From Paramagnetospirillum caucaseum (GTDB lineage Bacteria; Pseudomonadota; Alphaproteobacteria; Rhodospirillales; Magnetospirillaceae), in NCBI RefSeq assembly GCF_000342045.1, contig NZ_AONQ01000036.1:1-46314 (forward strand): DNA of 46,314 nt. Direction: 5' to 3'. Made by a program: the position numbers and the translations under genes. Position 1 is the first letter of the stretch, and each line of letters starts with the position of its first letter. A model generated the notes under the pieces. It was not told the DNA's origin and did not search any database. It worked only from the letters and a program-made list of their open reading frames with translations. Below, piece by piece: positions 25,023 to 44,400 of this stretch.

Positions 25023-25125
25023 TTCACCCTCCGCGGCCGGCGCCGGCCGGAGGCTACGCTCCACCACCCCGCCGAAGCCATACATCTCAGCCATCCGAAA
25101 GCACGTCACAATGGATGACGCACCT

Positions 25126-25207: not shown

Positions 25208-25235
25208 CTGTATCATTACTTATTTTTTGATACAG
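25208..25235. repeat. Inverted repeat spanning the patatin-like stop codon
   Basis: CTGTATCA and TGATACAG (8-bp arms, 12-nt loop). The TAA stop of the patatin-like gene lies in the loop. No T-run follows on the minus strand, so a transcription terminator is doubtful; it may stabilise the mRNA end. Confidence 0.45.
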
Positions 25236-26337
25236 CTTTAGCCGATGGCGGCGGCGTTCCCGTGCGATAAGCCTTGAGAACCGCATCGGCGGCGATCCGG
25301 CCGTCAGCGATAGAGCGGTCCAGGTTCGACCAGCTCCAGTCGTAATTGATGTTATGGGCGACGGGGATCTCGACCACCCTCACCGTCGAGCCGCTCTCCA
25401 GCAGGTGGTACTTGAACAGCTTGACGTCGTCCTCGCTGGTGGTGGCGGCGAACAGCATCACCAGGTTGTTGAGCGCGTCGTAGAGGTTTTCAGGCCGGCG
25501 GATCTGCTTGCGGTCGAGGATACGGCTGACCCACACCTCGTCCAGGTCGGGATGGTTGGTCAGCAGGTCCTCGAAATTGACGGTGTCGATGGTGGCGCCC
25601 TCGCAATAGACCTTGCCGTTCATGGTCACCGGCTCCTCGATATAGGGCAGGGCGGAACAGGCGCACAGGGTCTCGGCCGAGATGGGCTGGTACTTGGAAT
25701 CCTTGTTGCTGAACAGCTCGAGGCGCTGGTCGCTCAGGTTGTAGGAATTGTGGTAGAGCACCGGACGGCCCGGCTGGTACAGGGCCTTGAAATCGATCTG
25801 CTCCAGGAAGGCGCTGTCGGGATAGAACACCCGCGACAGCCCCTTGGTGGCGCTCTTGTACATCAGGCTGGTCATGAACCGCGACACCGGGTTGACCGCC
25901 AGGACCTGGTTGAGGATCAGGGCGTTGAGATTGGCCTGCGACCACTTGCCGGGGTCCCTGGAGAAGGCGACGATCTCCTCGGACGCCGCCTTGATGGCCT
26001 CGGGGATCACCAGGTTGCGATAACTGTTGGAATCCAGCACGAAGTTCAGCGCGTTCTCCGCCGCCGCCTCGAAATCGGGCGCGAAGGCCGCCGCCACCGG
26101 GAATTTCTCGTAGACGTCGTCGGGGCGGAAGATGCCGCGGAAGAAATCCACCGACGTCTCCACCTCCTTGCCCGGCGCGGCCTGGTTCCAGACGATGCCC
26201 AGCCAAGCGCCGATGCAGGCCAGACTCCACACCTCGAAGCGGATATCCGGTTCACGGTGGAGGCGCTCCAGCGCCCCGATGGACAGGCCGACGGCCGGGC
26301 CGCCGCCCGCCAGACAGATCGCGCGCTTGATCGCCAT
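25216..26337 (-). CDS. Patatin-like protein with altered active site (copy 1)
   Basis: Patatin-fold protein of 373 residues. The oxyanion loop is present (CLAGGGPAVGLS, residues 8-19). The nucleophile elbow, normally GxSxG, reads LACIGAWLG with C41 in place of Ser. The catalytic DGG/DGA reads EGA (E246 in YCEGATID). It is therefore either a Cys-dependent acyl hydrolase/transferase or an inactive lipid-binding relative. The start at 26337 has AGAGGGGG 6 nt upstream. A clear paralogue lies at 33518-34555 beside the polyketide synthase; both share the SxADQ/LSDQ, EG(A/G)xxDTxNF and RRPxNLxxA stretches. The receptor gene lies downstream on the same strand after 193 nt. Confidence 0.8.
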   Translation of the reverse strand: MAIKRAICLAGGGPAVGLSIGALERLHREPDIRFEVWSLACIGAWLGIVWNQAAPGKEVETSVDFFRGIFRPDDVYEKFPVAAAFAPDFEAAAENALNFVLDSNSYRNLVIPEAIKAASEEIVAFSRDPGKWSQANLNALILNQVLAVNPVSRFMTSLMYKSATKGLSRVFYPDSAFLEQIDFKALYQPGRPVLYHNSYNLSDQRLELFSNKDSKYQPISAETLCACSALPYIEEPVTMNGKVYCEGATIDTVNFEDLLTNHPDLDEVWVSRILDRKQIRRPENLYDALNNLVMLFAATTSEDDVKLFKYHLLESGSTVRVVEIPVAHNINYDWSWSNLDRSIADGRIAADAVLKAYRTGTPPPSAKAVSKNK

Positions 26338-26509: not shown

Positions 26510-28060
26510 ATGCATCACGGGGCGGGGTCTGCGGAGTTCAAGTGGCGCCACCTGATCGAGGCGGTGGAGGAATTCGGCCAGGGTTTCACCGTGTTCGACC
26601 GCGACCTGAACCTGATCCTGTGCAACAACCGTTTCCTCGAGATGCTGGACTTTCCGCCCGGCTTGGTCCATCCGGGCACGGTGTTCGCCGACTTCATGCG
26701 CTACAACGCCCTGCGCGGCGAGTACGGGCCCGGCGACGTGGAGGAACTGGTGGCCGAACGGGTGAAGAAGGCCCGCAACTTCACCGCCCATTGCTTCGAG
26801 CGCGAACGCCCCGACGGCACGGTGATCGAGGTGCGCGGCACCCCGCTGCCCGGCGGCGGCTTCGTCACCACCTATACCGAGATCACCGACCGCAAGCGCG
26901 CCGAGCGCATGCTGATCCACGCCAAGGACAAGGCGGAGGAGATGGCGCGGGTCAAGGCCAACTTCCTCGCCACCATGAGCCACGAGATCCGCACCCCCAT
27001 GAACGGGGTGCTGGGCATGCTGCACCTGCTGACCGGCTCGCCGCTGACGCCCGAGCAGCGCGACCACCTGGAAACCGCCCAGTCCTCGGCCCGCGCCCTG
27101 CTGGCCATCATCAACGACATCCTGGATTTCTCCAAGCTGGAGGCTGGGCAGATGAAGCTGGAGGCCACCCGCTTCGACCTGCACCGGCTGGTCGACGAGA
27201 TGCTGGCCCTGATGAAGGGGGCCGCCGCCGACAAGGGGCTCACGCTCCAGGCGCGCCTGGGAGACGGAGTGCCGCACCACATCGCCGGCGACCCCACCCG
27301 CCTGCGCCAGGTGCTGACCAACCTGATGGGCAACGCCGTCAAGTTCACCGAGAAGGGCGGCGTGGTGGTCTCGGTGAAGGCGGAGCCCGACGGCCCCGCC
27401 CCCGCCCGCCTGCGCTTCGAGGTGGCAGATACCGGCATCGGCATCGAACCCGCCGCCGCCCCGGCCCTGTTCGCCGAGTTCGTCCAGGCGGATTCCTCCA
27501 TCACCCGGCGCTTCGGCGGCACCGGCCTCGGCCTGTCCATCTGCAAGAGGCTGGTGGAGATGATGGGCGGCGAGATCGGCTTCGACAGCGTTCCGGGCGA
27601 GGGGACCACCTTCCACTTCACCCTGCCGCTGGTTGCCGCGGCGGAGGATCGCGACACGGGCGCCATGGTCAACGAAACCGGCGATCTGCCGTCCCTGTCG
27701 GTGCTGCTGGCCGAGGACAATCCCGTCAACCAGAAGCTGACCACCACCCTGCTCCGCCGCTGGGGCCAGCGGGTCACCCTGGCCCACAACGGGGCCGAGG
27801 CCATCGCCGCCGTGGCCCGCGAGCCCTTCGATCTGGTGCTGATGGACGTCCACATGCCGGGCATGGACGGGCTGGAGGCGACGCGGCGCATCCGCGCCAT
27901 GGCCGGCCCGCTGGCCGCCATTCCCATCATCGCCATGACCGCCGACGTTCTGGACGGCGATGCCGCCCTGTGCCTGGCGGCCGGCATGGACGACTACGTC
28001 GCCAAGCCGGTGGAGCCCGCCCGCCTGCTGGCAGCAATCAAGCAAGCCATCAGGCGCTGA
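26510..28060 (+). CDS. PAS hybrid histidine kinase with C-terminal receiver
   Basis: Soluble hybrid kinase of 516 residues, with no membrane helix. An N-terminal PAS domain (about 10-135, with GFTVFDRDLNLILCNNRF, a PAS_7-like pattern) leads to HisKA with phospho-His in TMSHEIRTPMNG. The HATPase follows ([25 protein letters not shown]), then a receiver at about 400-516 (LVLMDVHMPGMDG). The start at 26510 is chosen for GAGGGG 8 nt upstream; an ATG at 26477 lacks one. It is convergent with the acyltransferase gene, overlapping by 11 nt. The HPt and output regulator are not adjacent. Confidence 0.92.
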   Translation: MHHGAGSAEFKWRHLIEAVEEFGQGFTVFDRDLNLILCNNRFLEMLDFPPGLVHPGTVFADFMRYNALRGEYGPGDVEELVAERVKKARNFTAHCFERERPDGTVIEVRGTPLPGGGFVTTYTEITDRKRAERMLIHAKDKAEEMARVKANFLATMSHEIRTPMNGVLGMLHLLTGSPLTPEQRDHLETAQSSARALLAIINDILDFSKLEAGQMKLEATRFDLHRLVDEMLALMKGAAADKGLTLQARLGDGVPHHIAGDPTRLRQVLTNLMGNAVKFTEKGGVVVSVKAEPDGPAPARLRFEVADTGIGIEPAAAPALFAEFVQADSSITRRFGGTGLGLSICKRLVEMMGGEIGFDSVPGEGTTFHFTLPLVAAAEDRDTGAMVNETGDLPSLSVLLAEDNPVNQKLTTTLLRRWGQRVTLAHNGAEAIAAVAREPFDLVLMDVHMPGMDGLEATRRIRAMAGPLAAIPIIAMTADVLDGDAALCLAAGMDDYVAKPVEPARLLAAIKQAIRR

Positions 28061-28829
28061 AGCGCTTCACGTACCGGCCCGCGATGTCGGCGGCGTTGAC
28101 CACCACCAGCACGTCGGTGGTGTTGAACGGCCGATCGATCACCGCCCCGTCGCCGATCACGCCGCCCAGCCGCAGGTAGCCCTTGAGCAGCGGCGGCAGC
28201 GAGGCCAGCACGCGGCGCGCTTCCCACGGCGAGTCGATGGCGGCGAAGTCGACCTTGTCGGCGCTGTCCAGCGCCCGGCCGCGCAAGGCGGGCGGCGCCA
28301 GATGGTTGTCGCGCAAGTAAGCCAGTTGCGGCGCCAGCACCCGCGGATCGGTGCCCGGCAGGCTGCCGCAACCGAACAGCAGGCGGATGCGGTTGTCCAC
28401 CATGTAGGCGGCCAGCCCCTGCCACAGGGCCTGCAAGGTGCCGCGATGGCGCCAGCGGGCATCGACGCAGGAGCGGCCCAGTTCGAGGATCTCGCCGTCG
28501 GCCGCCAGGAACGGCCCGATGTCGAACTCGCCGGCCGAATAGAACCGCCCCACCGCCTCGGCCGCCCGGCGGCGGATCAGGCGGTAGGTGCCCACCACCT
28601 CGCCCTCGGCCAGCACCAGCAGGTGGTCGCAATGGCGGTCGTAATCGTCGAAATCCAGTTCCAGGGCGCGCATGGCGGCGCTGGGCCTTGCCCCCATTTC
28701 CTCGTAGAACACCCGGTAGCGGATGCGCTGGGCGGCGGCCACCTCTGCCCGGCTTTCGGCGAGGCGCACCTCCAGCCCGTCGGGGAGGGCCGGATTAAGG
28801 GCGTGGACGGCCGTCATCTGGTGGGTCAT
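28050..28829 (-). CDS. GNAT acyltransferase, OlsB/hemolysin-like
   Basis: Cytoplasmic acyltransferase of 259 residues in the Acetyltransf_5 group of the GNAT fold. Motifs: AAAQRIRYRVFYEEMGARPS, FDDYDRHCDHLLV, GTYRLIRR and the acyl-donor binding segment ELGRSCVDARWRHRGTLQAL. Family members include OlsB, which transfers 3-hydroxyacyl groups from ACP to ornithine in ornithine-lipid synthesis. That is the most likely role, although the partner OlsA is not in the window. It belongs to the same fold as LuxI autoinducer synthases but lacks their pattern. The start at 28829 has GAGGTGAG upstream. Confidence 0.8.
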   Translation of the reverse strand: MTHQMTAVHALNPALPDGLEVRLAESRAEVAAAQRIRYRVFYEEMGARPSAAMRALELDFDDYDRHCDHLLVLAEGEVVGTYRLIRRRAAEAVGRFYSAGEFDIGPFLAADGEILELGRSCVDARWRHRGTLQALWQGLAAYMVDNRIRLLFGCGSLPGTDPRVLAPQLAYLRDNHLAPPALRGRALDSADKVDFAAIDSPWEARRVLASLPPLLKGYLRLGGVIGDGAVIDRPFNTTDVLVVVNAADIAGRYVKRFSA

Positions 28830-31280: not shown

Positions 31281-31523
31281 TCAGGCCTCGACCTCGACGT
31301 CGGCGACCGGAGCCCCGACCGGTACCACGTCGCCCTCGGCCACCCACCAGCGCACCAGCCGCGCAGCGAACGGGGCCTCCACCTCCTGGGCCACCTTGTC
31401 GGTCTCCAGTTCGTAGAGGGGTTCGTCCAGGGCGAAGACCTCCCCCGGCTCCTTCAGCAACCGGGTGATCGCCACCTTTTCCACATTGTAGCCGTAGGAC
31501 GGAACGGCCAGCACCTTGATCAT
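31281..31523 (-). CDS. Stand-alone lipoyl-domain carrier protein
   Basis: Protein of 80 residues that is just one biotinyl/lipoyl domain. The attachment site is K43 in ELETDKVAQEV, the pattern of lipoylated (not biotinylated) domains. The hallmark N- and C-terminal strands are present (GYNVEKVAITRLL and EGDVVPVGAPVADVEVE). It starts inside the stop of the E1 gene (ATGA), so the two are co-translated. In ordinary complexes this domain is the N-terminus of E2 acyltransferase; here the catalytic E2 part is absent. It would carry the acyl group formed by the neighbouring E1. The acyl acceptor is unknown. Confidence 0.88.
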   Translation of the reverse strand: MIKVLAVPSYGYNVEKVAITRLLKEPGEVFALDEPLYELETDKVAQEVEAPFAARLVRWWVAEGDVVPVGAPVADVEVEA

Positions 31524-33505
31524 CACGCGGCTCCTGTCATGTCGCGGATGGTCTCCGCGACGGTTTGCGGCTGGGGCAGATAGGCGTCGCCATAAGCCCC
31601 GCTGAATCCGATATGCACGTCCGGGCGGCCCAGAATCCGGGGCGGGCAGGCCAGGCGACTCCAGGCCGTCGCATCGGCGCAGACCTCGCTGACGATCATC
31701 TGGCCGACGCCGCCGCTGACATTGTCTTCCTGCACCACCAGGAGCCGGCCGGTCTTGCCGACCGAATTCAGGACGGCCGCCTTGTCCCAGGGCGCCAGGC
31801 TGCGCAGGTCGAACACCTCGACGGAAGCGTCCGGCTCCAGCAGGCTCACCGCCTCGAGAACCACCCGGACGGTGTTGCCCCAGCAGATCACGGTGATCCC
31901 CTCGCCGTCGCGCAGCAGCTTCGCCTTGCCGAAGGGAATGGCCGGAAGCTCCTGGGGCACCGCCTCGGACACCGGGAAAAGCCGCTTGGGCACCAGGATG
32001 ACGGCGGGGTCGCCGGCATGGGCGGCGGTCCAGAACAGGCCGACGGCGTCGGCGGGGGTGCTGGGCACCGCCACCCGCAGGCCGGGAACCTGGAAGAACG
32101 CCGCCTCGCAGGCCTGGCTGTGCCACATTCCCGCCCCGGCCACATAGCCGCCATAGGGGGCGTAGATCACCGCCGGGCAGGTCCAGGCGCCGGCCGACCG
32201 CCAGCGCAGGGTGGCCAGGTCGTTGACGATCTGGCTGAGGGCGGGGCCGCAGAAATCGACGAACTGCATCTCCAGGAACGGGCGGATGCCGGCGCCGGCC
32301 AGCCCGGCCGCCACCCCGGCGATGGTGGCCTCGGCCAGGGGCGAGTTGTGCACCCGGCCGGGGAACCGGGTCGATTGGCCCCGCGTCAGGCCGAACACCC
32401 CGCCCTTGGGGTCCTCCACGTCCTCGCCGAACAGCAGGCAGCTGGAATCCCGCTCGAAAATACCCTGCAGCGCCACCCCGACCGCCCGCGCCATGGTCCA
32501 CCGGCGGTCCGAGAAGTCCTGGGGCAGGCGAAAGGCCGGCAGGTCGGCGGCCGACGGCGCCAGGCGGTCGCCGAGCGCCGCCACGGGCTCGGGATCGGGC
32601 TCGGCCATGACCTCCTGGAAGATGGCGTAGACCTCGTCGGCCATGGTCCGGCGCCGCTCGGCCATCCCGTCGCCGGACACCAGGCCGGAGGCGACGGCCC
32701 GTTCCATGGCGGCGGCGACCGGGTCGCGCTCCCACTTGGCGCGGATCGCCTCCTCCGGCAGGTAGCCGCGCTGGTCGTCGAAGCTGGAATGGCCCTCCAG
32801 CCGGTCCAGTTCGCACCACAGGATGGCCGGGCCGCCGCCGCCGCGCAGCCCAGCCATTACCGGCCGGGCCGCCTCGAACAGCCCCCCGGGGTCCCGCCCA
32901 TCCACCCGGGTCACCGGCACGCCGTCCAGCATGCCGAGCGCCAGGGGATTGAGATCGGCGGTCGGCGTGCTGATGCCGAATCCGTTATCCTCGACCACGA
33001 ACAGCACCGGCAGGCGGCGCTCCACCGCAAAGGCCACCGCCTCGAAGAACTCGCCCTGGCGGCAGGAGGCCTCCCCCGTCAGGGCCATGGCCACATGCGG
33101 CAGCCCCCGGCTTTTCATGGCCCAGGCGAAACCGCAGGCCGGCAGCAGGTGATGGGCGACCGGCGACAGGGCGCTCCACACCCCCCGCTCCCGGTCGCCG
33201 AAATGCCCCGGCATCTGCCGTCCGTTGGCCAGGGAATCCGCCTTGCCCAGCAGCAGGCGCGCCAGTTCGCGCACCGGCGTGCCCAGCGCCAGCAACAGCG
33301 CCTTGTCGCGGTAATGGGGAAAGACCAGATCGCCCGGCCGGATCAGCTGGGCCAGGGCCGCCAGGGATTCGTGGCCCACCGACGAGACGTGGAACGGCGC
33401 CTTGCCCTGGCGGACGGCAATGGCCTCGCGCCGGTCGCATTCGCGGCTGAGCATCATGGCGCCGAGCGCCGCCAACGGCTCGAACGCCACTTCGCACCCA
33501 TCCAT
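31523..33505 (-). CDS. Fused E1 alpha-beta 2-oxoacid dehydrogenase
   Basis: Thiamine-diphosphate enzyme of 660 residues that joins the alpha (about 1-330) and beta (about 335-660) subunits of E1 in one chain. It decarboxylates a 2-oxoacid and transfers the acyl group to a lipoyl domain. The alpha part has the ThDP motif as GEAS (E145 in place of Asp) with DN at 173-174, a form also seen in fused E1 proteins. The beta part has LFGEDVEDPKGGVFGLTRG, NSPLAEATIAGVAAGLA and FVDFCGPALSQIVNDLA. The start at 33505 has GGGGGA 8 nt upstream. The natural substrate (pyruvate, branched-chain or other 2-oxoacid) cannot be read from sequence. Confidence 0.88.
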   Translation of the reverse strand: MDGCEVAFEPLAALGAMMLSRECDRREAIAVRQGKAPFHVSSVGHESLAALAQLIRPGDLVFPHYRDKALLLALGTPVRELARLLLGKADSLANGRQMPGHFGDRERGVWSALSPVAHHLLPACGFAWAMKSRGLPHVAMALTGEASCRQGEFFEAVAFAVERRLPVLFVVEDNGFGISTPTADLNPLALGMLDGVPVTRVDGRDPGGLFEAARPVMAGLRGGGGPAILWCELDRLEGHSSFDDQRGYLPEEAIRAKWERDPVAAAMERAVASGLVSGDGMAERRRTMADEVYAIFQEVMAEPDPEPVAALGDRLAPSAADLPAFRLPQDFSDRRWTMARAVGVALQGIFERDSSCLLFGEDVEDPKGGVFGLTRGQSTRFPGRVHNSPLAEATIAGVAAGLAGAGIRPFLEMQFVDFCGPALSQIVNDLATLRWRSAGAWTCPAVIYAPYGGYVAGAGMWHSQACEAAFFQVPGLRVAVPSTPADAVGLFWTAAHAGDPAVILVPKRLFPVSEAVPQELPAIPFGKAKLLRDGEGITVICWGNTVRVVLEAVSLLEPDASVEVFDLRSLAPWDKAAVLNSVGKTGRLLVVQEDNVSGGVGQMIVSEVCADATAWSRLACPPRILGRPDVHIGFSGAYGDAYLPQPQTVAETIRDMTGAA

Positions 33506-33517
33506 GCGGTTATCCCC

Positions 33518-34555
33518 CTACGAAATGGTTCGGCCGAGATCGACGCCGAACTCGGCGATATGCTTTTTGGCGGTGTCGTAGCCCAGCTCGAACATCCGCT
33601 CCATGTTGGAGGTCGACCAGTCGAGCGCCGCCGGCAGCCAGTCCGGCGGAATGTCGAAGCGGATCTTGACCAGTTCGACTTCCTTCTTGGGATGGGCGGC
33701 GTTCCATTCCTTCAGGTAGTAGTGCTCGAACAGCATCAGGTCCTTCCGGCACACCTCGACCAGCGGCAGGATCATGGACTGGGAATAGGCCTGGAACAGG
33801 TTCTTGGGACGCTGGATGTAGTTCTGGTTGCCGAAGGCGTCGAGGACGACCAGGGTGCGGATATCCTCGTCGGTTTCCAGCAGGCCGCTGAAATTGTAGG
33901 TGTCGACCGCCCCGCCCTCCATGAAGTAGATGCCGTTGACATCCACCGCCTCGTAGATGAAGGGATAGCCGAGCGAGGCGCCGAACGTCTCGAAGTTGAT
34001 CTCGCTCTTGTCGTAGACCACCACCTTCTGGTCGGCGATGGAATAGGCGTTGAGATAGACCTCTTCCGGGAAGTCCTTGATCTTGGAGAAATCGATGAAC
34101 TGCTCGAGCAACGGCGCGTGGGAGCACAGGCCGCTGCTGAAGAAACTGGTGGTCGACGGCGTGGTGATCGCCCAGATCAGCTGGATCAGGTCGCTCATGA
34201 GCTTCTTGCCCTTGCTCATGCCGTACTGGTTCACGACCTTTTCATAGAAGGGCAGCTTGGTCAGCAGGCCGCGATACATCTCGGCGATGCGGCTGCCCTT
34301 CACGAATACCCGGTAGTTGATGGGAAGGACGTTGAAGATCGCGTCGGAGACGCTGAGATTGATCGAGTTGCGCAGGTTCTCCTGGCGGCTCAGGCCGTCG
34401 GCGGGCGAGGCGTACATCAGGGCCATGGCGCCGCCGCCCCCGGCCCCCGAGATCACGTCGAACTTCACGCCGGCTTCGTCGAAGGCCAGCATGGCCCCCG
34501 TCATCAAGGTACAGTTGGGAGCACCGCCACCCAGCACCAACGCCATTTTCGTCAT
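33518..34555 (-). CDS. Patatin-like protein lacking catalytic dyad (copy 2)
   Basis: Patatin-fold protein of 345 residues. The oxyanion loop is VLGGGAPNC (residues 7-15). The nucleophile elbow reads GAGGG, with G39 where Ser should be, and the catalytic Asp is E213 (MEGGAVD). A standard Ser-Asp hydrolase mechanism is therefore excluded. The start at 34555 has AAGGAGG 6 nt upstream. It lies 29 nt after the polyketide synthase and 12 nt before E1, so it is surely co-transcribed. It is a paralogue of the protein at 25216-26337. A role in binding acyl chains or lipid, or as a scaffold, is inference. Confidence 0.8.
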   Translation of the reverse strand: MTKMALVLGGGAPNCTLMTGAMLAFDEAGVKFDVISGAGGGGAMALMYASPADGLSRQENLRNSINLSVSDAIFNVLPINYRVFVKGSRIAEMYRGLLTKLPFYEKVVNQYGMSKGKKLMSDLIQLIWAITTPSTTSFFSSGLCSHAPLLEQFIDFSKIKDFPEEVYLNAYSIADQKVVVYDKSEINFETFGASLGYPFIYEAVDVNGIYFMEGGAVDTYNFSGLLETDEDIRTLVVLDAFGNQNYIQRPKNLFQAYSQSMILPLVEVCRKDLMLFEHYYLKEWNAAHPKKEVELVKIRFDIPPDWLPAALDWSTSNMERMFELGYDTAKKHIAEFGVDLGRTIS

Positions 34556-34584
34556 GGTTTCCTCCTTGCGTTCACGACCCTTCG

Positions 34585-37500
34585 TCACGAAGCCGGCCGA
34601 GACAATTCCCGTGAAATAACTCTCTGGATAAACGCCTCGTCCTCAATGATAGAATAGTGCGTTCCCTCGCGCATGAGGATTTGCAACTGTCTGTTGGTGA
34701 ACCGCCCCCAGCCCAGGATATCCTCGCGCGAGACGAAGATGTCGCCGATGGCCACGAAGCAGGTGATGGGAACGTCCAGCGGCGTCCTGCGCCGGTAGCG
34801 ATAGGTGCTGGCCATCTCGAAATCGGCGCGGACCGCCGGCAGCATCAGGCGCCGCAATTCCGGATCGGCCAGCAGGTGCTCGCTGGCGGCGATATCGAAG
34901 TGGCGGACGATTTCCGCGAAGATCGGCCCCGGCTGGCGATAGGGCGGCCGGTCGGGCCGATAGCCGGGCATCCGCGCCAGACGGCGCATCAGGCTGGTCT
35001 CGAACGGACCGACGGCCTTGAGCCGGTCCGGCGCGCGCGCGCCGGAACAGAACAGGTGGCTGGGCTTGACCCCCGCCCGTTCCATCAGCCGGCAGGTGGC
35101 CTCGTAGAGGGTCAGGCTGCCCAGGCAATGGCCGAAAAAGGCGAAGGGCAGATCCAGCTTGCCGTCCATGGCCGCCATCAGGCGGTCCACCCACCGCTCG
35201 AGGTCGCGTTCCGGCTCCTCGGCGATGCGGGTCAGGCGGCCGGGCGGCTCCACCGCGATCACCTCGATGGCCGGGTCCATGGCCGGCCCCCAGCTCCGGA
35301 AGGTGGCCGAACCGCCGCCGGCGAAGGGGAAGCAGAACAGGCGGGCCCGCGGCTTTTCCGGCCCGACGATGGTCACCAGCCAGCCGTCCCGCTCCACCGC
35401 CCCGGCCGCGCCTTCGGCTTCGGCTTCGGGGATGGAAGCCGGCTCGCCGGCCGTATCCGGCCACAGCTCGTCGATCAACTGGTCGATGCTGGGGCCGCGG
35501 ATCAGGTTAAAGGTGGGAATCAGCAGGCCGGCGGCGGCCTCGATGCGGTTGGTCAGGGTGACCGCCATCAGCGAGTCGAGGCCGACCTCGCGCAGCGGCC
35601 GGCCGGGCTCGATGGGCTCGGACAGGCCCAGCGCTGCCGTCACCTGCTGGCGCAGGAACGCGGTCAGCGCCGCCCGCCGCCGGGCAGGGGAGCCGGAAGC
35701 GAGGCTGGCCCGCAATTCCACCAGACCGGCGGCCGGCCCGGCTCCGACCTTGCCCTGGAGATGGGCCAGCAGGGGCGGCGTCTCGGCGAACTGGCCGATG
35801 AAGGCGGTCCAGTCCACCTGCGCCACCGCCACCTGCCCCAGGCCGCCGCCGAACAGCAGGTCGAAGGCCCGGCCGCCCGTCTCCGACGAGATGAAGCTGA
35901 GACCACGGGCCTGCCACACGGCCTGCGCCCTCTCGTCCAGTCCGCCGGCCATGCCGGCCTCGGCCCAGGGGCCCCAATTGACCGCCAGCGCCGGCAGGCC
36001 GAGGCTGCGGCGATGGGCCGCCAGGGCGTCGAGACAGGCGTTGGCGGCGGTGTAATTGGCCTGGCCCGCCGACCCCAGCAGGCTGAGCACCGAGGAGAAC
36101 AGCACGAAGTCGCAGGGGCCGGCGTCGCGGCTCGCCTCGTGCAGCCACCAGGCGCCATCCAGCTTGGGCGCCAGGACACGCCGGAATTGCGCCCAGTCCA
36201 TTCCCTCGACCATGCCGTCATCGACCAGCCCGGCGCTGTGGTAGATGCCGCGCAGCGGCGGACCCAGAGCGCCCACCCGGCGCATCAGGCGCCGCACGTC
36301 GGCCCGGTCGCCCATGTCGGCCTTGACGATCACCACCCTGGCGCCGATCGCCTCGATGGCGCGGGTCACCGCGGCGGCATCAGCGGCCTTGCCGCCCTGG
36401 CGGCCGACCAGCACCAGCACCTCGGCCTTGCGGCTGCGGGCCAGCCATTCGGCCACCCGGCGGCCGATGGCTCCCAGGCCGCCGGTGACGACATACGTTC
36501 CTCCCGACTCCGGCGGGGCCGGGGGCTCGGGCGGGGCGATGGCGGCCAGCCGCGCCACCAGATGCCGCCCCCGGCGGAAGGCCGACTGGGTCTCGCGGTC
36601 CGGCCGCGCCAGTCGGGCGGCCAGCGGCGCCACCCCGTCGTCCCCCGCCTCCAGATCGATCAGTCCACCCCACAGGGCCGGCATCTCCACGGCGAGCGAG
36701 CGCCCGAAGCCCCAGAGCCCGGCCTGCAGGATCTCGGCCGGCGGGTCGTCCGCCGAGGCGGCAACCGCGTTGCGGGTGACCAGCCACAGACGCGCCCCGG
36801 CCTGGAACAGCCCCCGTTCCCCGGCCAGGATTCCGGCCAGGGCCAGGGCGGTGCCCAGCACCCGCCGCTGCGCCGTTTCGTCGGTCTGGGCCTGGCCGGC
36901 GGCGTCCAGTCCGCAAAGATGCACGATGCCGGCGGGACGCCGTCCCGCCGGGGCGGCGAAGGAGCGCAGCAATTCCCCCATGACCTCGGGCGTTGCGGGA
37001 ACGTCGGCGGAGACGACCCGCCGGACGACGGCCCCTTCCGCCCCCAGCGCCGCCGCCAGGGCCGGGCCGGTCCCGTCGCCATCGCCGCCCAGCAGCAGCC
37101 AGGCGGCGGGACCGCCGCCCGCCGCCGCCGGGGCGGCCTCCTCCTCCCAGCGCAGCTGATAGAGCCCGCTTTCGTCCGGCCGATGGCCGGCCGGCCGGAA
37201 CATGGCGGGCGGCAACGGCTTCAGGGTGACGCCCTCGAACCCGGCGACCAGCGTGCCGTCCAGGTCGCGGGCCTCCACGTCGACGACGGTGTGGCCGCCA
37301 TGGCCGGCGGCGGCGCGGCGCTTGACGTGACACCACAGGTCGCGCGCCGCCGACGGGACCATGCGGAAGCGTTCCATGGCCACCGGCAGCGGCAGCGCCG
37401 CGCCGGCCGGTGGAGGGCGGCTGAAATCGCCCAGGGCGTCGATCACCGCCGGATAGAGGTGAAGACAGGCGTCCAACAGGGCCGGCGGCGGATAACCGCC

Positions 37501-40500
37501 GGTTGCGGGTGGATCGACGCAATCGGGCAGGCGCACCCGCGCCAGGGCCTCGCCCTCGCCGCGCCACAGGCTTTCGATGCCCCGGAAGGCCGGCCCGTAG
37601 CCCAGGCCCAGCCCCTTCAGCCCGGCGTAATAGGCCGAGGCCTTCAGCGAGGTGGCGCAGCGCCGCTGTATCCGCTTGGCGTCGAAGCCGTTGCCGCCGC
37701 CCCGCCCCCGCTCCCGCTCCGGGGCGATTTTTTGCACCACGCCCCGCAGATGGGTCCGCCACGCCCCCTCCCCGGCGCCCAGGCTGGTCAGGGTGAAGCC
37801 GGCCCGTTCCCCGTCCCCGGGCTCGACCAGCAGGCAGACGGGGCGCTCCTCGTCGTCGGCCAGGGCCAGGATGTCATCCTGGGCGACATCCACCACTTCG
37901 AGCGCCGCCGCTCCCAGGCTGTGGCGTGCCGCCCCCAGCGCCGCCGTCAGGCCGGCGGCGACGGGCAGGACCATGGACTCATGCACCCGGTGATCGCCCA
38001 GCCACGGCAGCCGGGCGCGACCATAGGTGGCGTCGAACTGCTGCACGGCAAGGGGCGACGGCCGGCGATGGCCGGCCAGTTCCCCGTCCGGGGAAACGGC
38101 CGGACGCCGGGGCGAGGCCTCGGCCTCCAGCCAGAACCGCTCGTGCTGGAAGGCATAGGTGGGCAGGGACAGCCGGCGGGAGCGGAACGGGGCGTCGAAG
38201 CACCGCCAGTCCACTGCCACCCCGCGGCGATGCAGGCCGGCGAGACTGTCCAACAGCGTGCGGCCCTCGTCGCCTGCCTTGCCCAGCGTCGGCAGCCAGG
38301 CGAGGTCGCCGCCCGCCACGCCATCTTGCGCCAGGGCCAGCAGGCCGCTTCCCGGACCGATCTCCAGATATTCGGTGATGCCCATGCCGGCCAGGGTCGC
38401 GGCGGCGTCGGCGAAGCGCACCGCCTCGCGGGCCTGCCGATACCAGTACTCGGCGTCGGGGGCCGTCGCCATGGTCTGACCGGTCAGGGTCGAGACCCAG
38501 GGAACGGAGGACGGCCGGGCCCCGGCCCCGGCGGCGGCCTGGGCCAGCCCGTCCAGGGCGGGAGCCATCAGGGCGGAATGGAAGGCATGGGACACCGTCA
38601 GCCGCCTCGCCGCGACGCCCTGCCCGTCAAGGGCGGCCAACACCGCCCCGACCGTCTCGGCCTGCCCGGAAATCACCGTGTTGCGCGGTCCGTTGACGGC
38701 GGCCACGTCGATGGTTCCGGCGGGATATCCGGCCAGGGCGGCGCGGACCGTACCCTCGTCGGCAAACACCGCCGCCATGGCCCCGCCCTCGGGCAGCGCC
38801 CCCATCAGGCGTCCGCGTTCGGCGACCAGACGGGCGGCCTGATCCAGGGACAGCGCGCCGGCCAGACAGGCGGCGGCGAACTCGCCGATGCTGTGGCCGG
38901 CCACCGCCATGGGCCGGATGCCCCAGGCCCCCAGGCAATCGGCCAGGGCGACCTGCACGGCGAACAGCGCCGGCTGGGTATGCTCGGTCCGGTGGATGGA
39001 CGCGCCGCCTTCACCCTCGGAAAAGAGAACGTCGAGGATGGAGCCGCCGAGATGGGGGGCCAGGGCCGCCGCCACCCGGTCCAGCGACTCGCGGAAGACC
39101 GGTTCCGACCGGTAGAGCGACCGGCCCATGCCGGCGAATTGCGAGCCCTGGCCGCTGTAGAGAAAGGCGACCCGCCGGGGCGTGTCCGGCACCCGCCCGG
39201 CCTGCTCCGGGCGGTAGGCCGCCAGCCTGTCGCGCAGTTCCGCCCAGGATTCCACGGTGACGGCGAAGCGGTGGGCGAAGTGGGCGCGACCGGCGGCCAG
39301 GGTGTGGCAGACGTCTCCCAGATCCATGGCGGGATCGCCCGCCGCCACCTCCCGGTAGCGGCCGACCAGGGCGTCGAGCGCCGGCACGGTCCTGGCCGAC
39401 AGCAGGAAAAGATGGCGCGGCCGCCGGGGGCGCCCCGAGGCCGGCGGGGCGGCGGGCGCCTCCTCGACGGCGACGGCGGCATTGGTGCCGCCCATGCCCA
39501 GGGCGTTGATCAGGGCCCGGCGCGGCTGGGTTTCTGGCCGCCAGGGCAGCTTTTCCGTATTGATGAGGAAGGAAGTGGTCTCAAGCTTCAACAGCAGATT
39601 GAGGGTGCTGAAGTTCACGTTGGGCGGCACCACGCCGTCGCGCAGCATCAGCGCCGTCTTGACCAGCGACACCAGCCCCGAGGCGTTCTCGGCGTGCCCG
39701 ACATTGGGCTTGGCCGAGCCGATGGGACAGGGCGGACCGCCGGCGCAGCCCGGAAAGGCGCGCTTGAGCGCCGCCAGTTCCTTGGGATCGCCCACCGAAG
39801 TGCCGGTGCCGTGGCATTCCACATAGCCGATTGTGGCCGGCGGGAAACCGGCCTGGGCCAGGGCTTTGCCCAGCACCTCGCCCTGGGCTTCGGTGCTGGT
39901 CACCGTGTAGCTTGGCTTGCGCCCGCCGTCGTTGTTGACGGCGCTGCCCCGGATGACGGCGTAGATATTGTCGCCGTCGTCGAGCGCCTGGCGCACGTCC
40001 TTCAGCAGCACCGCCACCACGCCGCTGCTGAACGCCGTCCCGCCGGCATTGGCGTCGAAGGTGCGGATATGGCCGTCGGGGGAAAAGATCGATCCCTTGA
40101 CCGCCACATAGCCGGCCCGCTGGGGCACCCTGACCGTCGCCGCCGCCGCCAGGGCCATGGAACAGTCGCCGTCGCGGATCGCCTTGCAGGCCAGATCGAT
40201 CATCACCAGCGAGGTGGAGCAGGCCGCCTGCACGTTCAGGCTGGGGCCGCTGAGGTCGAGCTTGAAGGAAATGCGGGTCGACGCGTAATCCTTGTCGTTG
40301 CCGAAATGCAGCTGGCTGGCCGTCCCGCCGTAGCGCGCGTCCGGATGGCCGGACAGCGCGTTCATCATGTAATTGGTCACCACCGTGCCGGTGGTGGCGT
40401 AGACCGCCACCGGCCCGTGCCCCCGGCCGGGAGGATAGCCGGCATCCTCGAAGGTTTCCCAGGCCACCTCCAGCAGGTGGCGCTGCTGCGGATCGATCAA

Positions 40501-40755
40501 CCGGGCCTCGTGGGGGGAATAGCCGAAGAAGCCGGCGTCGAAGCGGTCGTGCCCGTCAAGGACATAGCCGGCCTTGACGTAATGCGGGTCCCTGATCTGC
40601 TCGGCGGGCACCCCGGCGGCCAGCAGTTCCGCATCGGAAAAGCGGGTGAGCGATTCCGTGCCGTCGCATAGATTGGTCCAGAACTGCCGCCAGTCGGACG
40701 CGCCGGCCAGCCGGCACGCGATTCCGATGATGGCGATCCCCCCCGGCTGCGCCAC
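34585..40755 (-). CDS. Single-module type I polyketide synthase
   Basis: Multienzyme of 2056 residues, domains KS (about 1-435), AT (530-840), DH (890-1185), KR (about 1215-1655), ACP (1695-1765) and TE (1800-2056). KS has C179 in AACSTSL, the GTGT His and NVGHAENASG. AT has S622 in GHSIGE and HAFH (about residue 718), which predicts malonyl-CoA. DH has H922, though its motif HRVHESMVLP has Glu where Gly is usual, and D1095 in LLDACLH. KR has TGGLGAIG, Y1568 and LVDD (B-type). ACP has S1728 in GLDSLMAV. TE has GHCLG with C1877 instead of Ser, D2005 and H2033. There is no ER. The start is GTG with GGGGAGG upstream. With one module it probably acts iteratively; the product is unknown. Confidence 0.95.
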   Translation of the reverse strand: MAQPGGIAIIGIACRLAGASDWRQFWTNLCDGTESLTRFSDAELLAAGVPAEQIRDPHYVKAGYVLDGHDRFDAGFFGYSPHEARLIDPQQRHLLEVAWETFEDAGYPPGRGHGPVAVYATTGTVVTNYMMNALSGHPDARYGGTASQLHFGNDKDYASTRISFKLDLSGPSLNVQAACSTSLVMIDLACKAIRDGDCSMALAAAATVRVPQRAGYVAVKGSIFSPDGHIRTFDANAGGTAFSSGVVAVLLKDVRQALDDGDNIYAVIRGSAVNNDGGRKPSYTVTSTEAQGEVLGKALAQAGFPPATIGYVECHGTGTSVGDPKELAALKRAFPGCAGGPPCPIGSAKPNVGHAENASGLVSLVKTALMLRDGVVPPNVNFSTLNLLLKLETTSFLINTEKLPWRPETQPRRALINALGMGGTNAAVAVEEAPAAPPASGRPRRPRHLFLLSARTVPALDALVGRYREVAAGDPAMDLGDVCHTLAAGRAHFAHRFAVTVESWAELRDRLAAYRPEQAGRVPDTPRRVAFLYSGQGSQFAGMGRSLYRSEPVFRESLDRVAAALAPHLGGSILDVLFSEGEGGASIHRTEHTQPALFAVQVALADCLGAWGIRPMAVAGHSIGEFAAACLAGALSLDQAARLVAERGRLMGALPEGGAMAAVFADEGTVRAALAGYPAGTIDVAAVNGPRNTVISGQAETVGAVLAALDGQGVAARRLTVSHAFHSALMAPALDGLAQAAAGAGARPSSVPWVSTLTGQTMATAPDAEYWYRQAREAVRFADAAATLAGMGITEYLEIGPGSGLLALAQDGVAGGDLAWLPTLGKAGDEGRTLLDSLAGLHRRGVAVDWRCFDAPFRSRRLSLPTYAFQHERFWLEAEASPRRPAVSPDGELAGHRRPSPLAVQQFDATYGRARLPWLGDHRVHESMVLPVAAGLTAALGAARHSLGAAALEVVDVAQDDILALADDEERPVCLLVEPGDGERAGFTLTSLGAGEGAWRTHLRGVVQKIAPERERGRGGGNGFDAKRIQRRCATSLKASAYYAGLKGLGLGYGPAFRGIESLWRGEGEALARVRLPDCVDPPATGGYPPPALLDACLHLYPAVIDALGDFSRPPPAGAALPLPVAMERFRMVPSAARDLWCHVKRRAAAGHGGHTVVDVEARDLDGTLVAGFEGVTLKPLPPAMFRPAGHRPDESGLYQLRWEEEAAPAAAGGGPAAWLLLGGDGDGTGPALAAALGAEGAVVRRVVSADVPATPEVMGELLRSFAAPAGRRPAGIVHLCGLDAAGQAQTDETAQRRVLGTALALAGILAGERGLFQAGARLWLVTRNAVAASADDPPAEILQAGLWGFGRSLAVEMPALWGGLIDLEAGDDGVAPLAARLARPDRETQSAFRRGRHLVARLAAIAPPEPPAPPESGGTYVVTGGLGAIGRRVAEWLARSRKAEVLVLVGRQGGKAADAAAVTRAIEAIGARVVIVKADMGDRADVRRLMRRVGALGPPLRGIYHSAGLVDDGMVEGMDWAQFRRVLAPKLDGAWWLHEASRDAGPCDFVLFSSVLSLLGSAGQANYTAANACLDALAAHRRSLGLPALAVNWGPWAEAGMAGGLDERAQAVWQARGLSFISSETGGRAFDLLFGGGLGQVAVAQVDWTAFIGQFAETPPLLAHLQGKVGAGPAAGLVELRASLASGSPARRRAALTAFLRQQVTAALGLSEPIEPGRPLREVGLDSLMAVTLTNRIEAAAGLLIPTFNLIRGPSIDQLIDELWPDTAGEPASIPEAEAEGAAGAVERDGWLVTIVGPEKPRARLFCFPFAGGGSATFRSWGPAMDPAIEVIAVEPPGRLTRIAEEPERDLERWVDRLMAAMDGKLDLPFAFFGHCLGSLTLYEATCRLMERAGVKPSHLFCSGARAPDRLKAVGPFETSLMRRLARMPGYRPDRPPYRQPGPIFAEIVRHFDIAASEHLLADPELRRLMLPAVRADFEMASTYRYRRRTPLDVPITCFVAIGDIFVSREDILGWGRFTNRQLQILMREGTHYSIIEDEAFIQRVISRELSRPAS

Positions 40756-40785
40756 GCCGCCGCCTCCCCGTTGCCAGATGGAACG

Positions 40786-41151
40786 CTACCAGTCCTCGCC
40801 GTCGTCGGGCTCGTCGCCGAACAACGAGCCGCCATCGGCCAGATCGGCCAGGCGCTCCAGGGTGCGCTCCATGAAGTCCTGCATGGAGGCCAGGTAATCG
40901 ATCCAGATCTCGATCATCAGCATGGCGAGGCGGAGCTGGAAACCGGCGACCCGCTGTCCGGGATTGCTGCCCCCCATGGCCATCAGCAACGGCAGCATCT
41001 GCATGAACGTTCCCATCTGGAACGGCATCTCGCGGTCATGACCGCCGCCCCGCCGCTCGCGGCGCGGGCCACGGCCACGACCTTTGCGGGATTTAATATC
41101 GTCAGAATCTCGCTCAGAGTTACTTTCATTCGACCGGTCATCATCTCGCAT
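40786..41151 (-). CDS. Unknown small charged protein heading PKS operon
   Basis: Protein of about 121 residues that I do not recognise. The N-terminal 45 residues are strongly charged (acidic, then basic RKGRGRGPRRERRGGGHD), probably disordered. A Met-rich hydrophobic segment follows (FMQMLPLLMAMGG), then an amphipathic helix (FQLRLAMLMIEIWIDYLASM) and a C-terminus of acidic residues (LFGDEPDDGEDW). It could be a membrane- or granule-surface binder of phasin style, but no family match is claimed. The gap to the synthase is 30 nt. A GTG at 41163 is an alternative start adding 4 residues. Confidence 0.65.
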   Translation of the reverse strand: MRDDDRSNESNSERDSDDIKSRKGRGRGPRRERRGGGHDREMPFQMGTFMQMLPLLMAMGGSNPGQRVAGFQLRLAMLMIEIWIDYLASMQDFMERTLERLADLADGGSLFGDEPDDGEDW

Positions 41152-41402
41152 ATCGATGCCCACCCATCTTGCCTTCGATTAAGGAGCCATTTGCACCGAT
41201 TACGCCTTATTACGAGACATGGCAAACGATTTTCCGGCAGAATGCCGGGGCCTCCGCCCGGCCGGTCCCGGGGCTTCCGAATATGGCAAGGAGGCAAATT
41301 ATGGAAATAGGCAGTTGAAAGCGTACCTCGGCTCAGTAAGATTGCAATTGGCGGGCTTTCCAGCAGTCAGCACGGCCAGAACACAGCAAAGGCGCCCATA
41401 GG

Positions 41403-44400
41403 TTGAGCCAGTCCAGCGTAAAACCTCTATTGGCCACAGTGGGAAAGGCGCAGGAGCTGAGCCGTGACCGCGAGCGCGTCCTTTGGCGGGGAGAGACCGC
41501 ACCCGGGGAATCGGCGCTGGTGCTGGTTCCGGCCGGGGACGAGCCTTCGGCGCGGATGCTGTCGCGCTTCCGCCATGAATTCGCCCTGAAGGACAGGCTC
41601 GATCCGGACTGGGCCGTGCGGCCGATCACCCTGGTCGAGCGGAGCGGTTCCGCCGAGATGCTCCTCGAGGACCCCGGCGGGGTCATCCTGGACAGCCTGT
41701 TGCGCGACCACGCGCGGGTGGACGGCGGGCTGGATATCGGGGAATTCCTGTCCCTGGCCCTGCGGATCGCCCAGTCCCTGGCCCGGATGCACAGCCGCGG
41801 CGTCATCCACAAGGACATCAAGCCGGCGAACATCCTGGTTCCGCCGGACGGACAGCCGGTCCGCTTCACCGGGTTCGGAATCGCGTCGCAATTGCCGCGC
41901 CACCACATCGCGCTCGACCCCATCGAGACCATCGAGGGAACCCTGACCTACATGGCGCCCGAGCAGACCGGGCGCATGAACCGGTCGGTGGACTGCCGCA
42001 GCGACCTGTATTCCCTGGGCATCGTGTTCTTCGAGATGCTGGCTGGCCGGCCTCCCTTCGCCTCGGATGATCCGGTCGAGCTGGTGCATTTCCATGTGGC
42101 GCGCAAGCCGCCGCCGCTTTCCCAGCTCCGCCGGGATGTTCCCGGGCAGATCTCCGACATCGTCGCCAAACTGCTGGCCAAGCCGGCCGAGGAGCGCTAC
42201 CAGACCGCCAGCGGCCTCGCTTCCGACCTCGGGCGCTGCCTGGAATCCTGGCGGCAGCACCGCTCGGTGCAGCCCTTCCGGCTGGCCGCCAAGGACATGC
42301 CCGACCGCCTGGTCGTTCCCGAGAAGCTTTACGGCCGCGCCGAGGAATTGCGCCGGCTGCAGGCCGCCGCCGAGCAGGTGACGGCCCGGGGCACCCTGGA
42401 CGTCGTCATCGTCACCGGCTATTCGGGCATCGGCAAATCGGCCCTGGTCGGCGAATTGCACAAGGCCCTGATCGAGCCGCGGGCGCTGTTCGCCTCGGGC
42501 AAGTTCGACCAGTACAAGCGCCACATCCCTTACGCCACATGGGCCCAGGCGTTCCAGGGAAGCATCCGCCAGGTCCTCGGCCAGGGCGACCAGCAACTGG
42601 CGGAATGGCGCCGGGCCATCCTGGACGCCCTCGGCCAGAACGGGCGGCTGATCACCGACCTGATCCCCGAGCTTTCCCTGCTGATCGGCGAACAGCCGCC
42701 GGTCCCCGACCTGCCGCCCAACGAGGCGCAGGTCCGCTTCTTCGCCACCTTCCGCCGCTTCCTCAGCGTCTGGGCGACGGCCGAGCATCCGCTGGTCCTG
42801 TTCCTCGACGACCTGCAATGGATCGATCCCGGCAGCCTGAAGCTGTTCGAATACCTGGCGACCCACAGCGAATTGCGGCATCTGCTGCTGATCTGCTCGT
42901 ACCGCGACAACGAGGTGGGGCCGGCCCATCCGCTGGCCCTGTCGCTGGATTCCATCCGCTCGCGGATCGCCATCGAGGAAATCCTGCTCCAGCCGCTGTC
43001 CATCGGGCACCTCAACCAGATGGTCGCCGAGACGCTGTCCTGCCCGCAGGACAAGGCGGAGCCCCTGGCCGGGATCATCGGCAGCAAGACGGCGGGAAAC
43101 CCGTTCTTCGCCATCCAGTTCATGCAGGGACTGTTCGAGGACGGCCTGCTCGCTCCCGGCCCCGAGGGATGGCTGTGGAATATCGAGCAGATCGCCCGGA
43201 AGAACTTCACCGACAACGTCGTCGACCTGATGGTCGGCAAGCTGCGCCGCCTGCCGCAAGGCACCCAGAACGCCATGCGGATTCTGGCCTGCCTGGGTAA
43301 CACCGTGGCGGTCAGGACGCTGCAGATCGTCCATGGCGCCGCCGCCGCCCTGGACGACGACCTGGACGAGGCGCTGCGCGCCTCCTATCTGGTCCGGCGC
43401 AAGGACGTCATCCGCTTCACCCACGACCGCATCCAGGAAGCGGCCTATTTCCTCCTCCCCGCCGAGGACCGGCCGGCCGAGCATCTGCGCATCGGCCGCG
43501 AACTGGCCGCCAACCTGGACGAGGACGGGATCGACGATGAGATCTTCGACCTGGTCAACCATTTCAACATCGGCGTGGACCTGATCGCCGATTCCGGGGA
43601 AAGACAGCGGGTCCGCCTGATGAACGTGCGGGCCGGCGAGAAGGCGAAGGCCTCCGCCGCCTACGCCACGGCCCGCACCTTCTTCGTGCAGGCCATGGAC
43701 ATGCTGCCGCCCTCGGCCTGGGAAGACGATTACGAGGGAACCTTCCGGCTGTTTCTCGAACGCACCACCTGCGAATTGCTGCTCGGCAATTTCCAGCAGG
43801 TGGACGACCTGTTCCCGCTCATCGTCGGCCGGGCGAAAAGCAACGCCGACCGCGCCCGCGCCTATCGGCTGCTCATTCTCCGCAACCAGGTGGCCGGCCG
43901 TTACGGCGAGGCGGTCGAGGTCGCCCTGACCGCGCTGCGCATGTTCGGGCTGACCTGCCCCACCACCCCGGCCGACATCGAGGCGGCGGTGGAAAGCGCC
44001 CGGCTGGAATCCAGGGGCAATCTGCGGGGCCGGGAGATCGGCGCGCTGATCGACGCCCCGGCCATGACCGACCCGGACGCCCTGGGCATGCTGGGCATCC
44101 TGGCCGACGCCATGCCCTGCGCCTGGATCGCCCGGCCCGACCTTTACGCTTGGCTGGCCCTCAACGCCCTGAACGTCACCCTGGTGCTCGGCAATGACGG
44201 CGATTCCTGCGCCGTCTACATGGGCTACGCCATCGTCCTGGTCAGCAAGTACGACGCCATCGACGAATCCCTGCAATACGCCAATGTGGCGCTGAAGCTG
44301 CAGGAAGCGCTGAACCGGCCCGACCTGCGGGGGCGCATCCTGGTCCGCGCCGGCGTGTTCATCAACAGCCGCCGCAACCATATCCGGTCGAGCATCGACA

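Follow-up and report, generated by a model that had tools for sequence, protein, structure and literature searches.

A fused 2-oxoacid dehydrogenase E1 and a free-standing lipoyl protein as a candidate starter-unit loader in a polyketide synthase operon of Paramagnetospirillum caucaseum

The window analysed here, 46,314 nucleotides long, is contig 36 (NZ_AONQ01000036.1) of the draft genome of Paramagnetospirillum caucaseum, which totals 4.86 Mb. It holds a minus-strand operon (41151-31281) composed, in this order, of a small protein, a polyketide synthase (PKS), a patatin-like protein, a fused E1 of the 2-oxoacid dehydrogenase type and a lipoyl protein (Table 1). A gap of 30 nt separates the small gene from the PKS gene, the E1 gene begins 12 nt past the patatin stop, and the E1 and lipoyl genes overlap by 1 nt. 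The patatin-like gene, which ends at 33518, encodes 345 aa from an ATG at 34555 and then leaves 29 nt after the PKS gene; an alternative GTG at 34588 (356 aa) turns this gap into a 4-nt overlap. Gene calls and Pfam agree with an earlier sequence-only reading of this DNA, which had placed five minus-strand genes here with gaps of at most 30 nt, and Pfam finds neither an E2 nor an E3 among the five, as that reading had also held. Its assignment of the lipoyl-lysine to K43 is likewise favoured by alignment, in which K43 of the 80-aa protein lines up with the lipoyl-lysines of other lipoyl domains. The E1 carries E145, H239, E361 and H462 at the aligned catalytic positions, and we take these residues to have the corresponding catalytic roles.

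Table 1. Operon genes and the adjoining divergent kinase gene in the window
Feature	Position	Strand	Evidence
Small protein, 121 aa	40786-41151	-	no Pfam or NCBIfam match; relatives precede the PKS in congeners
Single-module type I PKS, KS-AT-DH-KR-ACP-TE (ketosynthase, acyltransferase, dehydratase, ketoreductase, acyl-carrier protein, thioesterase), 2056 aa	34585-40755	-	Pfam; active-site motifs in 8 orthologues
Patatin-fold predicted pseudo-hydrolase, without catalytic Ser and Asp	33518-34555	-	Pfam Patatin 1.8e-13; patatin fold in model
Fused E1 alpha/beta 2-oxoacid dehydrogenase, 660 aa	31523-33505	-	Pfam E1_dh, Transket_pyr, Transketolase_C
Free-standing lipoyl-domain protein, 80 aa, lipoyl-lysine K43	31281-31523	-	Pfam Biotin_lipoyl 1.2e-10
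Divergent Ser/Thr kinase-AAA_16-TPR-GAF-PAS protein, probable regulator, cut by contig end	41556-46313	+	Pfam

E1-like genes have previously been noted beside streptogramin A synthases, and the closest relatives found of the operon's E1 outside the genus lie in such a setting. A tblastn search against 72,556 plasmid records, through which alone the Actinomycetes were sampled, matched five Streptomyces plasmids at 46-48% identity over 97-98% of the query; among the best 40 of the 232 records of a laxer search, the other 35 rows reached at most 35.5%. Neighbourhoods, here and throughout, were read with a simple purpose-made gene caller, which does not work on DNA of low GC content, and for these plasmids they were read in three of the five cases (L114, L115 and L116), the other two records being unannotated. 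In all three the E1 gene lies directly upstream of a gene for a PKS/non-ribosomal peptide synthetase (NRPS), overlapping it by 4 nt in L114 and ending 22 nt before it in L115 and 21 nt before it in L116, and all three synthases begin with a lipoyl domain, an E2-like domain, an ACP and a KS. Moreover, the window's lipoyl protein matches these N-terminal lipoyl domains at 46-50% over 74 aa (E 3e-20 to 1e-23). In a set of 16 domains (the window's and 15 others) they are the closest to it after its own two orthologues; beyond 40 aa in length no further match, including those to the KASIII fusions described below, exceeds 34%, and short pieces reach 40%. In a tree of 19 E1 rows, picked from the best matches, the clade of the window is sister to the Streptomyces loader E1s with support of 99/98. 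Since the E1 and the lipoyl protein are both nearest to one and the same PKS loader, the pair was likely inherited as a loader. We assign a probability of about 0.6 to the reading that E1 and lipoyl protein load the neighbouring PKS with its starter unit and do so without an E2, and the kinship of both proteins also argues for the priming route put forward in the sequence-only reading, from E1 through an acyl-lipoyl intermediate to the synthase.

The next E1 relatives after the Streptomyces loaders point the same way. E1 relatives were sampled, not exhaustively, in 119 relatives, 398 genomes of the phylum and 369 genomes of another class of the phylum, probably Gammaproteobacteria. In six of these 369 the E1 is matched at E 1e-80 or better: three genomes encode single E1-lipoyl-KASIII (ketoacyl-ACP synthase III) chains (G825, G964 and G890, one of them incomplete at a contig end), one encodes an E1-lipoyl fusion (G1160) and two hold E1/E2 operons. 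The KASIII parts retain Cys, His and Asn, and the E1s of the window, of Streptomyces and of the fusions form one clade (100/100), separate from nine other E1s. As in the window, a fused E1 is combined in these proteins with a lipoyl domain and no E2 occurs in the chain, a ketosynthase being the apparent acceptor in three; they differ in being single chains, in which a KASIII takes the place of the type I PKS, and their lipoyl domains are only 21-28% alike to the window's over 80 columns. No KASIII was found by Pfam in the five-gene unit, the rest of the genome not having been searched for one. In L107 (2361-5940) an E1-lipoyl-KASIII chain has an ACP gene directly downstream, and L108 (9625-11970) encodes a 781-aa E1-lipoyl fusion with no KASIII in the chain and none recognised by eye among the listed neighbour frames. 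As for the nine E1s outside the clade, those of L020, L026, L110 and L111 have a true E2 as neighbour, and those of L022 (9945-13440) and L023 (2414-5490) adjoin a lipoyl protein which ends in an alpha/beta-hydrolase domain and has no E2 core, L024 resembling L022 by eye; in L021 and L025 neither kind of gene was called.

The pyruvate, branched-chain 2-oxoacid and 2-oxoglutarate dehydrogenase complexes (PDH, BCKDH and OGDH) have the E1 fold, the catalytic residues and the lipoyl-lysine in common with the operon's proteins, which differ in lacking an E2 and E3 in the unit and a spare E2 in the genomes examined, and in the separate clade of the E1. Exactly two E2 domains were found in each of G016, G010, G009, G005 and G281, a count which is the same with and without this E1. 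In G016, where E2 identities were assigned, they are the PDH E2, beside a lipoyl-E1 beta and an E3, and the OGDH E2, beside its E1 and an E3, all above the NCBIfam cut-offs. There is thus no spare E2 for the loader E1 in the complete E1-bearing genomes G016 and G010, and the draft genome of P. caucaseum itself shows two E2 fragments, both at contig ends. The sequence-only reading had named an E2 clearly using this E1 and lipoyl protein as the contrary case; the search for one turned up only the PDH and OGDH E2s in G016 and two E2 genes in G010. An ordinary catabolic dehydrogenase was accordingly set aside as the first reading, on the lack of a spare E2 and the separate clade of the E1. A 495-aa frame at C13, considered as a PDH E1 beta, has its family match there with DXS, and a lipoyl-synthase-like gene was seen by eye beside the PDH operon of G016.

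The resident complexes could nevertheless lend their E2 to the E1 and the lipoyl protein, which would then make free acyl-CoA for the PKS or for general metabolism. Acyl-CoA starters are common in PKSs, and both operons of G016 include E2 and E3. A precedent of sorts is offered by Photorhabdus, in which the branched starters of specialised metabolism, for isopropylstilbene and iso-fatty acids, are reported to come from the 2-oxoacid dehydrogenase operon BkdABC (PMC3838401, PMC8248439, PMC9177418); Bkd differs in being described there as a dehydrogenase which gives isovalerate-CoA. However, the resident E2s have their own E1s adjoining, the 80-aa carrier has neither a subunit-binding domain nor an E2 core, a CoA route needs no carrier of its own, and the kinship described above points to loaders bound to synthases. 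A borrowed E2 therefore appears unlikely, while being the foremost of the alternatives.

The operon itself is narrowly distributed. An E1 orthologue is present in three of the 17 genus genomes, namely that of the window, G016 and G010 (about 80% identity), and the remaining seven E1 matches among the 119 relative genomes have 29-42% identity. The order of small gene, PKS, patatin, E1 and lipoyl gene recurs in G016 and G010 with protein identities of 71-95%, the lipoyl protein being 95% identical in the two congeners, and this recurrence indicates that the operon is not a product of chance. Both also retain the divergent kinase gene and most of the flanking genes, and the CheX-like gene which follows the lipoyl gene in the window was not called in either. 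The patatin-like gene has a wider range, occurring in eight of 55 family genomes, all eight within the genus, and in three of 385 class genomes (that of the window, G281 and G349). Five of the eight patatin-bearing genus genomes (G002, G005, G009, G012 and G013, the last two read through records L035 and L036) hold the core of divergently oriented kinase, small gene, PKS and patatin at the same locus without E1 and lipoyl genes, and in these five the CheX-like gene directly follows the patatin. In G281, which belongs to another family, PKS and patatin have 47.6% and 46% identity, the small protein ahead of them is unlike that of the window, and an E1 or lipoyl gene is absent from the 32 kb read. 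The claim that the five genes form one unit thus stands for the three genus genomes which keep the full order and fails for the five others and G281; as one ancestral unit the five genes were ruled out by these PKS-patatin loci lacking E1 and lipoyl genes. In G281 (L031/L032) a thioesterase-like gene was seen by eye upstream of the PKS, and a chemoreceptor gene near the PKS is 62.5% identical to that at 23322-25085 of the window. The PKS of G005 (L090, 3717-9926) is split into two open frames of 1610 and 444 aa, by a frameshift or an assembly fault.

The patchy presence of E1 and lipoyl genes is also what would be expected if the pair had merely been inserted beside the PKS and shared its promoter while serving another process, such as 2-oxoacid oxidation or a redox carrier. 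Against this, E1 and lipoyl protein are both nearest to one type of PKS loader, and the pair is closely spaced with the rest of the operon and has been preserved by selection in three species. Purifying selection is evident between the window and G016 from ratios of non-synonymous to synonymous divergence (dN/dS) of 0.074 for the lipoyl gene, 0.28 for E1, 0.20 for the patatin and 0.32 for the PKS. A role apart from the PKS is accordingly somewhat less probable again than a borrowed E2.

Divergence within the locus is uneven. Compared with G009 (window 33518-46313 against L087/L112), the kinase, small, PKS and patatin proteins have 41-59% identity, the kinase 43%, whereas six neighbours across the operon, from MsrA to MCP, have 84-93%. 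The same four proteins are 71-88% identical to those of G016 (kinase 82%), with five of the same neighbours at 88-93%, and three neighbours beyond the kinase are 78-91% identical between G016 and G009. Kinase, small protein, PKS and patatin are thus, as far as these comparisons indicate, a cassette at a fixed site, either exchanged or fast diverging; synonymous differences within it (0.42-0.48) appear close to saturation, so the two cannot be told apart. The divergent kinase, which diverges together with the PKS, is probably the regulator of the cassette. Beside the cassette, a GNAT protein (28050-28829, minus strand) resembles the ornithine N-acyltransferase OlsB, with an NCBIfam score of 246 bits, below the cut-off of 320, and is 91-92% identical in G016 and G009. 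The small protein of the operon has a charged Gly-rich N-terminus, a conserved MQMLPL..W.DYL..ERxLxRL segment, an acidic end and a terminal Trp, and its relatives are alignable by eye only; an identity with a known phasin or docking protein was considered and dropped for want of a family match in Pfam and NCBIfam.

In the PKS the KS starts at residue 7, the single ACP spans residues 1701-1762 and the TE 1805-2044 (Pfam). Active sites are kept at C179, H315 and H354 of the KS, S622 of the AT, the KR tyrosine and the ACP serine, and the AT has the motif HAFH, which we take to be of the malonyl type. Two KS changes, TACSTS to AACSTS and NIGH to NVGH, occur only in the three E1-bearing members among the eight PKSs, and they would fit an altered starter. 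The TE motif is GHCLG, with Cys for Ser, in all eight orthologues, whether E1-bearing or not, and a Cys-for-Ser TE can favour acyl transfer over hydrolysis. It could therefore be asked whether the acyl-lipoyl group comes into play only once the chain is complete, the Cys-type TE or another acceptor then joining the acyl group of the loader to it. However, five of the PKSs with the Cys TE lack an E1, so this feature did not arise with the E1, and the kindred loaders act at the start, which makes a chain-end role improbable.

The sequence-only reading had also allowed for a hand-off through the patatin-like protein, which would take the acyl group from the lipoyl arm and pass it on; the position of its gene between the PKS and E1 genes invites this suggestion. 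Aligned to PlpD (PDB), the protein has GAGGG in place of GTSMG and EGG in place of DGG, so that Gly stands for the catalytic Ser and Glu for the Asp. These replacements are invariant in 11 aligned rows, and likewise in five operon-type orthologues. An AlphaFold model (mean pLDDT 82.4) is matched by Foldseek to CapV, VipD, PlpD and patatin, with a best E of 1e-9 and TM of about 0.4-0.6. By its residues the protein would be a pseudo-hydrolase, and, belonging to a PKS core which also exists without the E1, it probably serves in binding or as a scaffold and not as a catalyst. As an acyl shuttle it was rejected for lack of the Ser/Asp dyad. A scan of 84,980 species yielded 43 patatin relatives, and of 19 loci submitted to gene calling two (L051 and L053) returned no genes; a PKS lies beside the patatin in three of the remaining 17, all Rhodospirillaceae. 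Ten Chromobacterium loci (L038, L039, L041-L047 and L052) share a Ser-less orthologue (37-41%) in one conserved neighbourhood, beside a PadR-like regulator gene, by eye, in nine of the ten, and no PKS was found within about 10 kb of them. With orthologues occurring both without the E1 and without a PKS found nearby, the hand-off through the patatin did not hold up, and of all the alternatives it is the least credible.

Further patatin-like proteins were observed in passing. Pseudo-patatins stand beside large cyclase/ATPase-like regulators, judged by eye and by weak BLAST matches, in L048 (7004-9925), L049 (6586-9912) and L040 (3-1493). A lasting tie between regulator and patatin, as with the kinase-ATPase near the patatin of the window, is possible. 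A second patatin-like protein in the window (25216-26337, minus strand), 27% identical to that of the operon, has Cys for the catalytic Ser (VWSLACIGAW); it has 89-93% identity in G009 and G016 and was not called in G005.

Returning to the starter-unit loader, the streptogramin-A-type system is the best guide to what it would do. In record L117 the downstream order runs through a second synthase, an ACP, a KS, an HMG-CoA synthase, two genes at ECH-type gene positions, two synthases, a malonyltransferase and flavin genes, and this fits the pristinamycin II cluster as described in the review PMC6963833, which gives isobutyryl as the starter of pristinamycin II. By analogy, the starter acyl group in the window is perhaps isobutyryl as well. 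Beside the fused E1 and lipoyl domain nearest to the window's, the two systems share the adjoining E1 and PKS genes. The differences are considerable: the lipoyl domain is the N-terminus of the synthase in Streptomyces and a free 80-aa protein in the window, where it ends without the E2-like domain that follows it there; the first KS is preceded there by a loading ACP, whereas the PKS of the window starts with the KS and has its single ACP later; and the Streptomyces synthase is a PKS/NRPS with no AT domains seen in the L115 scan, unlike the single module with its own AT in the window. As a loader, the pair is a reduced variant of a kind which already exists.

We infer the substrate, the acyl transfer and the product from these parallels. 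The E1 would decarboxylate a 2-oxoacid with thiamine diphosphate, most likely a branched one such as 2-oxoisovalerate, which gives isobutyryl, and would reductively acylate the 80-aa protein at its K43-bound lipoyl group. The acyl-lipoyl protein would dock on the PKS as an acyl-ACP does, C179 of the KS taking the acyl group, and the module would extend the starter with malonyl units, with the KR and perhaps the DH acting. The Cys-type TE would release or transfer the product, and a resident dihydrolipoyl dehydrogenase would reoxidise the carrier. Priming of polyketide synthases ordinarily runs through CoA and phosphopantetheine. With neither an E2 nor a loading ACP in the operon, the acyl group should pass from lipoyl to KS directly or via a helper; that the free lipoyl protein fills the role of an acyl-carrier protein, the KS taking the group straight from the lipoyl thioester without E2, CoA or loading ACP, is a tentative proposal, to which we give slightly less than even odds.

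Several observations weigh against a starter-unit loader. The absence of E1 and lipoyl genes from five of the eight patatin-bearing genus genomes and from G281, all of which hold the PKS core, makes the pair dispensable for this type of synthase. The E2-like domain and the loading ACP of Streptomyces are both missing in the window, as far as domain matches tell, which leaves the transfer step without an identified catalyst. An E1 with a lipoyl gene lacking an E2 core is not unique to the window, being found in L022 and L023, and fusion E1s need not all be active, the G964 fusion having Gln at the Glu of the beta subunit. The KS changes come from one lineage of three sequences and may be drift, and the glycine of the DH motif HxxxG is lost in the three E1-bearing PKSs and in G281 too.

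A two-carbon loader is known from naphthyridinomycin and quinocarcin, in which a thiamine-dependent E1 and a lipoyl/E2 protein load an ACP, with a ketose as donor and an NRPS as recipient. The sequence-only reading knew of no described system with the present set. This stands in so far as no published unit of E1, free lipoyl protein and PKS was recognised in the literature, which is weak evidence, most subscription papers lying outside the search; it gives way in that a related loader exists in Streptomyces.

If the reading as a starter-unit loader is correct, two genes which convert a 2-oxoacid into a lipoyl-bound starter would make up a compact and portable module for changing starter units, and lipoyl carriers would be able to replace acyl-carrier proteins. 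By taking up this loader the synthase cassette would have acquired a new starter unit, and the congeners, some carrying the module in their gene sets and others lacking it, offer a natural comparison. Furthermore, the kinship of E1 and lipoyl protein ties an uncharacterised operon of Magnetospirillum-like bacteria to the way starters are loaded in a family of antibiotics in clinical use.

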